From Candidatus Dadabacteria bacterium (GTDB lineage: Bacteria > Desulfobacterota_D > UBA1144 > Nemesobacterales > Nemesobacteraceae): a stretch of 64,000 nucleotides of DNA. The stretch lies in the NCBI GenBank assembly GCA_026705445.1, contig JAPPAR010000011.1, positions 74,525-138,524 of the forward strand, read 5' to 3'. A program made the translations under genes and the position numbers. Positions 1,677 to 21,688 of this stretch are shown one piece after another (position 1 is the first letter of the stretch; each line of letters begins with the position of its first letter). The notes beneath the pieces are model-generated. The model worked only from the letters and a program-made list of their open reading frames with translations, was not told the DNA's origin and did no database searches.

Positions 1677-3098
1677 TCAGGATGTGATGAACTTCTCGAG
1701 GGTGGTTGAGAGCGCTGTGACGGCGGTTGATACCGAGGGATCACTTCCGATCTTTTTTTCAACGTTTTTTACTGCGTGGACCACCGTGGAGTGGTTTTTC
1801 CCTCCGAACCTGTTCCCTATTTCCGGGAACGACGAGGATGTGTATTTTCTCGAAAGGAACATCGCTATCTGCCTAGGCTCAGAAACTTTTTTCTGTTTCT
1901 GGCTGGATTTCAGGTCCTTCACGGTGAGTTCAAAGAAGGAGCTTACCTCTTTCTGGATGAGGTCTATGGTTATTATTTTCGGGGTCTCTTTTTTTACCAG
2001 GTTGCTGAGGAGTTGCTTTGCCAGTTCAAGGGTTATTCTCTCTCTGAACATCTTGGAGTAGGCAAAGAGCTTGTTCACCGAGCCTTCCAGCTCCCTTATG
2101 TTGGAGAGGACATTCTGGGCCACGAACGAAGCCACGTCGGCCGGAATCTCGATTTGTTCCTCCTCGGCCTTTCTCTCTATGATGGCTATCTTGGTCTCAA
2201 CTTCCGGCGGCTGTATGTCGGCCGTAAGCCCCCACTCGAACCTGGATTTCAGGCGCTCCTCGAAGTTCTTCATCATGCTCGGCGGCTTGTCGCTAGTTAT
2301 GACGATCTGCTTTTTCGCGGTGTAGAGGGAGTTAAACGTGTGAAAGAATTCCTCCTGCGTGCTGTCCTTGCCGGCGATGAACTGTATGTCGTCTATCAGC
2401 AGGACGTCGCAGTTCAGCCTGTAGAGGTTCCTGAACTTGTCCATCGAACCTGTCTTTATGCTCTGCACCACCCCGTTTGTGAAGTGCTCGGCTGAGATGC
2501 AGAAGGTATTCAGGCGGGTTCCGTACTTTTTGAGTATGTGGTTCCCGATGGAGTGGAGGAGGTGGGTCTTCCCGAGGCCCACTCCGCTGTGTATGAAAAG
2601 AGGGTTGTAGGCCATTCCCGGGTTCTCCGCTATGGCGTATGAGGCGGCGTGGGCGAACTGGTTGCTGGGCCCGACGACGAAGTTGTCAAACGTGTTGGAT
2701 GAACTGAAAAAGCTCGCTGTCTGGGGATCGTGCGGTTCTCTGGTTCCCCCGTTGTCCAGGACCCTGTCTTTTTTACTTTCCCGGGCAACGGAGTTCTCCT
2801 CGCCCGCATCTATGGTTACTTGGAAGCCTTCTTTTCCGTAGAGGTTGAGGGCAGCGTCGTTTATCAGCTGCAGGTAGTGGTTTTTTACCCAGAGGGCCTG
2901 GAAGTGGGTTTTCGCCTCAAGCGTGACCATCTTCCCCTCGATTTTTGCGACTTTTATGGAAAACAGCCATGAGGGGGGAAAGTAAAGGTCTTTCTTGACG
3001 CCTTCGAGAACGGCGTCCCAGTCAAACTCTATTTTTTGTTCCGATTTGTAGTTTTCAGCAGCTAGGTTGTCGTGCGCAACTTCCTCTGTCTTTTTCAA
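1677..3098 (-). CDS. dnaA: Chromosomal replication initiator DnaA
   Basis: DnaA binds origin boxes and melts DNA to start replication. The 473-residue protein has the N-terminal helicase-interacting domain (to about residue 95), a variable linker, the AAA+ core with Walker A GVGLGKTH (about 172-179) and Walker B VLLIDDIQF, and the C-terminal box-binding helix-turn-helix with the signature GGKNHSTVVHAVK. The start codon is TTG at 3098, supported by CAGGAGAA at 3105-3112 about eight bases upstream. A strong promoter lies at 3185-3213. dnaN follows across the putative origin. Start and identity are well supported. Confidence 0.97.
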   Translation of the reverse strand: MKKTEEVAHDNLAAENYKSEQKIEFDWDAVLEGVKKDLYFPPSWLFSIKVAKIEGKMVTLEAKTHFQALWVKNHYLQLINDAALNLYGKEGFQVTIDAGEENSVARESKKDRVLDNGGTREPHDPQTASFFSSSNTFDNFVVGPSNQFAHAASYAIAENPGMAYNPLFIHSGVGLGKTHLLHSIGNHILKKYGTRLNTFCISAEHFTNGVVQSIKTGSMDKFRNLYRLNCDVLLIDDIQFIAGKDSTQEEFFHTFNSLYTAKKQIVITSDKPPSMMKNFEERLKSRFEWGLTADIQPPEVETKIAIIERKAEEEQIEIPADVASFVAQNVLSNIRELEGSVNKLFAYSKMFRERITLELAKQLLSNLVKKETPKIITIDLIQKEVSSFFELTVKDLKSSQKQKKVSEPRQIAMFLSRKYTSSSFPEIGNRFGGKNHSTVVHAVKNVEKKIGSDPSVSTAVTALSTTLEKFITS

Positions 3099-19448: not shown

Positions 19449-20132
19449 ATGTCTGATACTATAATGAAGGCCCAGATCGGTGGGGATATAGCTCATCTCA
19501 GAGAACTGAACCCGGATCTTTACGACTCTTGGATGGCTTATCATGATTCGGTTTTTACCGACGGAGCTCTCACCGCAAAGGAAAAACAGCTCATCGCGGT
19601 AGCCGTAGCGCATATTACGGCTTGTCCTTACTGTATAAGGTCAAGGGTTCGAGCCAGCAAAAAAGAGGGAGCGAGCGACCAGGAAATAGTCGAATCGATA
19701 TACGTGGGACTTAGGCTCAACATGGGGGGGCCTTTCGCGTTTTCAAGCCTGGCTTTTGAAGCCTGGGACACCCTCGAAAGCGGCATCCCGCTTACCGAGG
19801 GGCATTTCTTCAAAAAGGACATAGCGAAGGAAATTGCTAGCTTCAGGGAATGCAGCGGCGATATTTCTCCCCACTTCATGGAGCTTCATAAGAAAATTTT
19901 TGCCGACGGAGCTCTCAGTAAAAAAATGAAGAGAGGAATAATAGGTCTTGCATGTGCTCATGCGACTAAATGTCCTTATTGTATAAGGGGAACCGTGAAG
20001 GATGCGCACACCGACGGCGTAACTGCGGAGCAGATGGCTGAGGCCATAAACGTTGCCATGGTCATGACCGCCGGTTCCTGTTACGCGCACACCAGCATTG
20101 CTATGGACACGCTTAAGAGTCTCGAGAAATAG
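19449..20132 (+). CDS. Tandem carboxymuconolactone-decarboxylase/AhpD-like protein
   Basis: This 227-residue protein has two repeated AhpD-like units. Each repeats the plan of DSWMAYHDSVFTDGALTAKEK / FMELHKKIFADGALSKKMK followed by HITACPYCIR or HATKCPYCIR. The redox pairs are Cys59/Cys62 and Cys175/Cys178. AhpD peroxidases use CxxCxxxH for disulfide exchange with proton relay; here the histidine position is Arg in the first unit and Thr in the second. It is therefore a CMD-family redox protein with an altered active site, and peroxidase activity is uncertain. GAGAGG at about 19432 is the ribosome binding site. The gene ends just before the parS/terminator palindrome. Confidence 0.85.
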   Translation: MSDTIMKAQIGGDIAHLRELNPDLYDSWMAYHDSVFTDGALTAKEKQLIAVAVAHITACPYCIRSRVRASKKEGASDQEIVESIYVGLRLNMGGPFAFSSLAFEAWDTLESGIPLTEGHFFKKDIAKEIASFRECSGDISPHFMELHKKIFADGALSKKMKRGIIGLACAHATKCPYCIRGTVKDAHTDGVTAEQMAEAINVAMVMTAGSCYAHTSIAMDTLKSLEK

Positions 20133-20169
20133 AATTTTAGCGGTTTTTTTGAAAATCCTCCTCAATTTG

Positions 20170-20206
20170 CCCTGAATGTTTCACGTGAAACATTCAGGGT
20201 TTTTTT
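20170..20206 (+). terminator. Rho-independent terminator whose stem contains a parS site
   Basis: A 30-base perfect palindrome (20170-20199) starts CCCTGAA and ends TTCAGGG and is followed by seven T (20200-20206). In RNA this gives a strong hairpin plus U tract, closing the AhpD-like gene. Its central 16 bases are a perfect parS sequence, so DNA-level and RNA-level functions overlap. Confidence 0.8.
20177..20192. promoter_or_regulatory. parS: parS centromere site 1 (ParB binding)
   Basis: TGTTTCACGTGAAACA is identical to the bacterial consensus parS, the ParB/Spo0J nucleation site. It lies about 18 kb from the putative origin, which is the usual origin-proximal setting. No parA or parB gene is present in the window. 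Confidence 0.9.
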
Positions 20207-20255
20207 AGCTTTTTTCCTCTGACCGAATGCGGCTTTATATGGTAGATTCTCTTTC

Positions 20256-21659
20256 ATGTCGTCACTTGTGCCCGAGCGCGAAAGCACCATAGCCGCCATT
20301 TCCACCCCGCTTGGAGAGGGAGGAGTGGCCGTAATCCGTATAAGCGGTGGTGAATCTCACTCGATCGCGAGGAAAATCTTCGTTCCTGCGGGGAACACGG
20401 GTTTTTCCGAGAGAAAACTCTGTTTCGGGAAGATAATCGACCCCGAAACAGGCGGAACGGTGGATGAAGTCCTGTGTGTGGTCATGAGTTCCCCCGATAC
20501 CTATACGGGGGAGGACGTAGCCGAGATACATTCTCACGGGGGATATGTAGTTCCCCGGAAGATACTTGAAATTCTGATCGGCCTCGGGGCGACTCTCGCT
20601 GCCCCGGGCGAATTTACCCAGAGGGCGTTTCTTAACGGGAAAATGGACTTGGCGCAGGCCGAGGCGGTTTCTGACATTATAAGCGCCCAGACCGAGCAGA
20701 GCCTCCGCTACGCTGAGGCTCTGCTTGAAGGGACCCTTTCGGGCAAGGTGAACGAACTTAAGGATCAAATTCTTGACGTTCTGGCGGAAATAGAGGCGAA
20801 TCTCGATTTTCCCGAGGAAGATATAGATCCCATTGCGAAAAACCGCCTCAAGGAAGCCTCTGGATCCGTGGAAAAGGAACTTTCAGCGCTCATCGACAGC
20901 TACGACACGGGCAGAATGTTCAGAGACGGGGTGACTATGGTAATACTGGGCAAGCCTAACGTCGGGAAATCGAGCATACTTAACTGCCTGCTCGAGACTC
21001 AGAGGGCTATAGTGAGCCCTATAGCCGGAACCACGAGGGATTTTATCGAAGAGAGAATAAATATCGGGGGAATTCCCCTCGTTATAACTGATACGGCCGG
21101 CATAAGGGACACGGAAGACCGGATAGAAAGGCTCGGGGTGGAGCTTTCCCTGAAAAAAGCCGAGGAGTCCGAATTCGTGCTCGTCGTTTTGGACCAGAGT
21201 ACGGAACTTGATGGCCTGGACATAAGAATCCTCAAGACCGCCGCCAAAAAGAAGCATCTTGTCGTGATCAACAAGATAGATCTTGAGGAGAAACTGGAAA
21301 GATCAAAGCTGCGGAGGATTCTTGGGCGAAAAAAGCTGATTGAAACCTCGGCACTTGCAAAAGAGGGGATAGGGCGGCTCAGGCAGGCCATGTTTGAGAC
21401 CCTTTCGGGCTCGCCTAATGCCTTGGATGCCTCGGATGCCTCGGAACTGGTACTTACAAACCTTCGGCACAAAAAATCCATTGAGAAGGCCCGCGGCCAG
21501 CTGCGTATGTTCCTTGAGCTTCTTGGGCGGAACGAGTATCCGGAGATCCTCTCCATAGAATTGCGAAACTCAATGAATTCGCTCGGCGAGATTACTGGAG
21601 AAGTGACCACGGAAGATCTTCTGGGCAGAATTTTCTCCAGATTCTGCATTGGAAAGTAA
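20256..21659 (+). CDS. mnmE: tRNA modification GTPase MnmE
   Basis: MnmE works with MnmG to add the aminomethyl group to uridine 34 of certain tRNAs. The 467-residue protein begins with the folate-binding domain (TIAAISTPLGEGGVAVIRISG), continues with a helical domain holding the inserted GTPase (G1 GKPNVGKSS near 232, G2 AGTTRD, G3 DTAGIRD, G4 NKID), and ends in the invariant CIGK. No mnmG gene is in the window. The gene is bracketed by two parS sites. TAGATT (20243-20248), 18 bases from CTGACC (20219-20224), is a possible weak promoter placed almost at the ATG. Confidence 0.97.
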   Translation: MSSLVPERESTIAAISTPLGEGGVAVIRISGGESHSIARKIFVPAGNTGFSERKLCFGKIIDPETGGTVDEVLCVVMSSPDTYTGEDVAEIHSHGGYVVPRKILEILIGLGATLAAPGEFTQRAFLNGKMDLAQAEAVSDIISAQTEQSLRYAEALLEGTLSGKVNELKDQILDVLAEIEANLDFPEEDIDPIAKNRLKEASGSVEKELSALIDSYDTGRMFRDGVTMVILGKPNVGKSSILNCLLETQRAIVSPIAGTTRDFIEERINIGGIPLVITDTAGIRDTEDRIERLGVELSLKKAEESEFVLVVLDQSTELDGLDIRILKTAAKKKHLVVINKIDLEEKLERSKLRRILGRKKLIETSALAKEGIGRLRQAMFETLSGSPNALDASDASELVLTNLRHKKSIEKARGQLRMFLELLGRNEYPEILSIELRNSMNSLGEITGEVTTEDLLGRIFSRFCIGK

Positions 21660-21672
21660 AAGCGGGACTGAA

Positions 21673-21688
21673 TGTTTCACGTGAAACA
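21673..21688. promoter_or_regulatory. parS: parS centromere site 2 (ParB binding)
   Basis: A second exact TGTTTCACGTGAAACA, within a 20-base perfect palindrome (21671-21690), just after the mnmE stop. It is not followed by a T run, unlike the first copy, so it is not a clear terminator. The two sites are 1,496 bases apart. Confidence 0.9.

Follow-up and report, generated by a model that had tools for sequence, protein, structure and literature searches.

Results

A parS site very probably doubles as the stem of an intrinsic terminator

The element at 20170-20206 of the window (the whole 64,000-nt stretch of Candidatus Dadabacteria DNA analysed here) is, with high confidence, a fusion of a parS centromere site and an intrinsic transcription terminator, which would load ParB as duplex DNA and terminate transcription through an RNA hairpin. 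Its anatomy, its conservation, the compensatory changes in its stem and its recurrence in other lineages were all established by computation. The element reads CCCTGAA-TGTTTCACGTGAAACA-TTCAGGG-TTTTTTT, and the nucleotides from 20170 to 20199 form a perfect 30-bp palindrome (7+16+7). A sequence-only reading had described a 30-base perfect palindrome followed by seven T, with an exact parS at its centre, and both the coordinates and the zero mismatches obtained here agree with it (Table 1).

Table 1. Coordinates of the fused element and of its neighbouring features in the window.
Feature	Position	Strand	Details
AhpD-like / carboxymuconolactone decarboxylase gene	19449-20132	+	PF02627, two copies of the domain
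Left arm CCCTGAA of terminator stem	20170-20176	+	Pairs with 20193-20199 in 13/13 genomes, with compensatory changes
parS core TGTTTCACGTGAAACA	20177-20192	.	Exact match, 0 mismatches; invariant in 13/13; also upper stem and loop of the predicted terminator hairpin
Right arm TTCAGGG of terminator stem	20193-20199	+	Pairs with left arm in 13/13
T7 tract of predicted intrinsic terminator	20200-20206	+	T-rich in 13/13; none at downstream parS
Putative mnmE promoter CTGACC-18 bp-TAGATT	20219-20248	+	Consensus resemblance; conserved across genus
mnmE (trmE), downstream gene	20256-21659	+	PF12631, PF10396
Second exact parS	21673-21688	.	13 bases past mnmE; no T-tract, no conserved arms

The predicted RNA fold of the element comprises a 14-pair stem and a 4-base loop, and one G-U pair (20169/20200) lengthens the RNA stem beyond the 30-bp palindrome. 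The fold of the region 20130-20220 had a free energy of −25.1 kcal/mol (z = −4.15), which was equalled by none of 200 shuffles, and when both strands of the 64 kb were scanned for a single hairpin abutting each U-tract, the hairpin at 20170-20199 ranked first among all U-tracts (−21.8 kcal/mol). When the flanks were shuffled, at least seven arm positions were paired, with G-U allowed, in 0.2% of cases. Three properties characterize the predicted intrinsic terminator: a stable stem-loop with a T-tract immediately 3′ of it, a conserved and covarying stem pairing, and a position directly after the AhpD-like gene, co-oriented with it, in all 13 genus genomes. A two-way terminator was ruled out, since the minus strand has no T-tract.

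The stop codon of the AhpD-like gene lies 37 bases upstream of the hairpin stem, and 49 bases separate the end of the T-tract from the start codon of mnmE. The putative promoter begins 12 bases past the T-tract, and 7 bases lie between its TAGATT and the start of mnmE, a gap which suggests that the mnmE transcript would be leaderless or nearly so. Because this CTGACC-18-TAGATT sequence is conserved and promoter-like, the terminator probably divides two transcription units, AhpD-like and mnmE, and mnmE is presumably transcribed separately from the AhpD-like gene.

The genome carries two parS sites and a parA-parB pair

Two exact parS copies were found in the 64 kb (20177-20192 and 21673-21688), compared with 0.18 matches at ≤3 mismatches in the shuffled 64 kb, and the whole 1.78-Mb assembly, a metagenome-assembled genome, has only two parS sites at ≤2 mismatches, which rules out a repeat-family origin of the palindrome. 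A parA-parB pair is encoded on another contig, its ParB carrying an HTH_ParB domain. The 16-bp palindrome TGTTTCACGTGAAACA, the encoded ParA and HTH_ParB-containing ParB, and an origin-proximal position that is conserved in relatives together identify the site as a member of the parS family. The dnaA gene (1677-3098) is located about 17 kb from the fused parS, and parS sites adjoin mnmE in the genus and are found in its vicinity across the order. Within the window, no DnaA-box cluster beyond chance was found near the parS sites, so oriC was not placed. Two ParB-family genes are present in the assembly (C36:59-361, L073, and C40:21405-21704, L074); the C36 copy, at the edge of its contig, has a reading frame that departs from ParB at its end, and it could be a duplicate stemming from the assembly or from another strain.

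The core is invariant and the arms covary within the genus

The upstream site was assembled in 13 genomes of the genus, all related to one another, while the contig of G009 begins inside mnmE. The parS core was identical in all 13, and all seven arm pairs form in each of them, including two G-U cells, although the arms themselves vary (CCCTGAA/TTCAGGG, CCCCGAA/TTCGGGG, CCTTGAA/TTCAAGG and TCCTGAA/TTCAGGA). Arm position 4 is T-A in nine genomes, C-G in two and T-G in two (G012 and G013), and positions 5 and 7 each changed once from C-G to T-A; position 8 is G-C, C-G, A-T or G-U and is unpaired in one genome. Among the nine distinct sequences, two-sided changes were found at four pairs, and on a tree of the ahpD-mnmE region they fall on separate branches (G010, G011, the G006 lineage and the G008 lineage). 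None of 500 shuffles reached the observed percentage of paired positions, two-sided cell count or covariation score, and in slid controls the pairing dropped to 27-55%. At least six T among the eight nucleotides after the upstream site were found in 13/13 genomes, with the T-tract always 3′ of the AhpD-like gene. Since a T-G pair keeps the RNA pair and breaks the DNA palindrome, this pattern points to a constraint acting on the RNA.

The comparison of arms with core in relatives, which had been proposed as a check, thus yielded an invariant core, arms paired through compensatory changes and a T-tract that is always 3′. The conserved pairing and the T-tract also support the earlier proposal that parS would form part of the terminator stem of the AhpD-like gene.

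The downstream parS has the same core without the terminator features

In the same genomes, the downstream parS has the same core, but beyond the innermost arm positions its pairing is unreliable, and no T-tract follows it. Since this site is devoid of both arms and T-tract, ParB would not depend on the arms. In G012, the downstream site breaks off after TGTTT, with CTGAATGTTT joined to GGGAATT (L055, about 4560), and the terminator-embedded parS is the only one found at ≤1 mismatch in this 97% complete genome; if this species segregates its chromosome via parS, the terminator-embedded site would be the one used.

The fused element looks like a merger of neighbouring sites

In G014, which represents the sister genus, a separate 16-pair hairpin with T6 (−19.6 kcal/mol) stands after the AhpD-like gene, directly before a parS without arms. 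The element of the genus therefore looks like a merger of a neighbouring terminator and parS, with a direction of change, from separate to fused, that we infer from this one outgroup genome. In other Dadabacteria families, generally only the parS after mnmE is present, and no parS with a T-tract was found in them. Arm pairing together with a T-tract was observed at 13/13 upstream sites of the genus versus 0/38 parS-like sites (≤2 mismatches) of other Dadabacteria genera.

Two further observations were made in these relatives. At L059, L032, L040, L061 and others, TGTGGATAA-like repeats occur within a few bases of the parS after mnmE, an arrangement often seen in other Dadabacteria families; they resemble DnaA boxes, which suggests that oriC may lie there. 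No parS was found at ≤1 mismatch in the 14 genomes G044-G057, which belong to one family of the same class and measure 0.8-1.1 Mb, and these streamlined members may have lost parS or ParABS.

Fused sites recur in unrelated bacteria

GTDB species genomes were scanned for parS followed by 2-6 bases, three G/C and T6, with the left arm unconstrained, and at least 119 stretches were obtained. Among the matches listed, 62 of 85 strand matches, with unrelated sequences, have at least five complementary arm positions, compared with about a tenth of random left/right arm combinations, a comparison inflated by related Paraburkholderia entries. By mechanical ORF calls, the upstream gene runs toward the T-tract in 41 of the 51 classifiable intergenic cases among the matches listed. 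The arms differ between lineages, being AAGCGGTG/CACCGCTT in Paraburkholderia, ACGCAT/ATGCGT in Leuconostoc, GGCAA/TTGCC in Acidaminococcus and CCCTGAA/TTCAGGG in Dadabacteria. Several fused sites are located between convergent genes and have T-tracts on both strands, and two-way forms occur in Leuconostoc and Acidaminococcus.

With a looser pattern, parS with a T-tract was found in 59 of 61 sampled genomes of Paraburkholderia (the genus of G077), where the element lies between an upstream ABC-transporter ATPase gene and mnmG downstream. Most of the 31 Paraburkholderia matches that were read have full and strongly covarying arms, with arm position 2 being C-G in 22, T-A in 7 and G-C in 1, and a few fit poorly (e.g. 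L297 and L309). Roughly a fifth of the sampled Burkholderiaceae genomes carry the fusion, as judged by eye among the matches listed. Elsewhere it occurs sporadically, in Clostridia, Negativicutes, Leuconostoc and others. Across 300 genomes of a Clostridia phylum, 10 T-tract versus 2 A-tract matches were found, and the ten include the genome on which the sample was centred; this enrichment is modest, so the fusion appears to be rare outside certain lineages. None was seen in the 17-genome phylum of G060. The rarity in the Clostridia phylum and the absence from the phylum of G060 rule out the fusion as a universal feature, and the sequences indicate that it arose more than once. More than 20 parS sites were found in G089 (Thermosporothrix, contig C30), most of them within about 32 kb, while G082 (Phascolarctobacterium) has about 15 or more at scattered positions.

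Discussion

One palindrome could serve both functions since they use different molecules, DNA and RNA, and we infer that ParB loads and RNA polymerase stops at the fused site. As duplex DNA, the 16-bp core would be one of the two parS sites where ParB loads to build the partition complex of the origin region. As RNA, the core and the seven extra pairs would fold where the AhpD-like transcript ends, and the hairpin with its U-tract would release RNA polymerase ahead of the mnmE promoter. Selection for ParB binding would keep the self-complementary core invariant, and selection for termination would add the G+C-rich paired arms and the T-tract. The economical account would be exaptation, in which a palindrome maintained by ParB offers a ready-made part of a terminator stem. 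The stable 3′ hairpin could serve mRNA stability as well.

The arms might instead belong to a longer ParB recognition site, an extended parS next to which the T-tract would be incidental, and the innermost AA/TT, and partly the third arm position, do recur at the downstream site. However, the remaining arms are missing from the downstream parS of the same genomes, and pairing is kept where arm sequence is not, including the T-G wobbles; the T-tract is present in 13/13 genomes, arms in other lineages are unrelated, and the ParB of Burkholderia cenocepacia tolerates changes even at the outermost core position of parSc1 (PMC5450999). As the downstream parS is armless and the arms covary rather than being conserved, an extended ParB site was rejected, and we regard it as highly improbable. 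Slightly less credible still is a reading without a terminator, in which the hairpin is a cruciform formed by the DNA or a palindrome that arose around parS by chance. Given that parS is already palindromic, a longer palindrome needs fewer changes than it would in random DNA, but seven paired arm positions arise in only 0.2% of random flank pairings, pairing and T-tract coincide at 13/13 upstream sites versus 0/38 sites of other genera, and G-U intermediates are present. The top rank of the hairpin among U-tracts, together with the flank shuffling, led us to discard a chance palindrome.

A different matter is whether the two functions are coupled, such that ParB modulates termination or mnmE expression, or termination shields parS and the ParB clamps from read-through. 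Such coupling is conceivable, in that the element has a transcription unit on one side and a conserved promoter-like sequence on the other, that in P. aeruginosa the promoters beside parS3/parS4 are repressed by the ParB at these sites (PMC7022226), and that the fusion is conserved beside mnmE or mnmG in two distant groups. Against it, no terminator accompanies the second parS, the fusion is missing from most Dadabacteria and from most of the bacteria sampled, and ParB clusters of B. subtilis in vitro neither form a roadblock for RNA polymerase nor are dissolved by transcription (PMC10681803), a result which also weighs against strong mutual interference of transcription and segregation, a possibility that the sequence-only reading had named. 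We consider coupling unlikely, and the fused parS-terminator does not require it. Similarly doubtful is the wider proposition that fused parS-terminators form a class that recurs under selection, with ParB occupancy and termination influencing one another, the partition complex nucleating where transcription stops, and expression of mnmE or mnmG responding to ParB loading.

The parS site and the intrinsic terminator are each textbook elements. Like the chromosomal parS sites of B. subtilis (Spo0J/parS) and Burkholderia (parSc1), the site described here has the consensus TGTTTCACGTGAAACA, an origin-region location and a parA-parB pair. Here it is extended into a terminator stem, a use for which no report on any described parS was found in the literature searched, most subscription papers being outside its reach. 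As in other intrinsic (Rho-independent) terminators, the base of the stem is G+C-rich and the stem covaries, here with a 4-base loop and T7, but the upper six pairs and the loop would be fixed by an unrelated DNA-binding requirement. The closest precedent is offered by the neisserial DNA uptake sequences, which form inverted repeats within Rho-independent terminators (PMC2397512, citing Ambur 2007 and Kingsford 2007); there, too, a DNA motif that has a cis function of its own is reused as a terminator stem. Uptake sequences are high-copy and contribute two copies per stem, whereas parS, a palindrome by itself, is present in one or a few copies per genome, here two, and its other function is chromosome segregation.

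The fusion is well supported computationally, and its general reach is modest. How partition complexes and transcription coexist is unsettled, and fused sites offer natural cases of a centromere inside a terminator. Where a parS lies close to genes, the conserved sequence around it can be a signal in RNA, and some centromeres will be flagged by terminator predictors. Since the core, the arms and the T-tract can be changed separately, the two functions are separable, and Paraburkholderia, in whose sampled species the fusion is nearly universal and many of which are cultured isolates, provides a good experimental handle.
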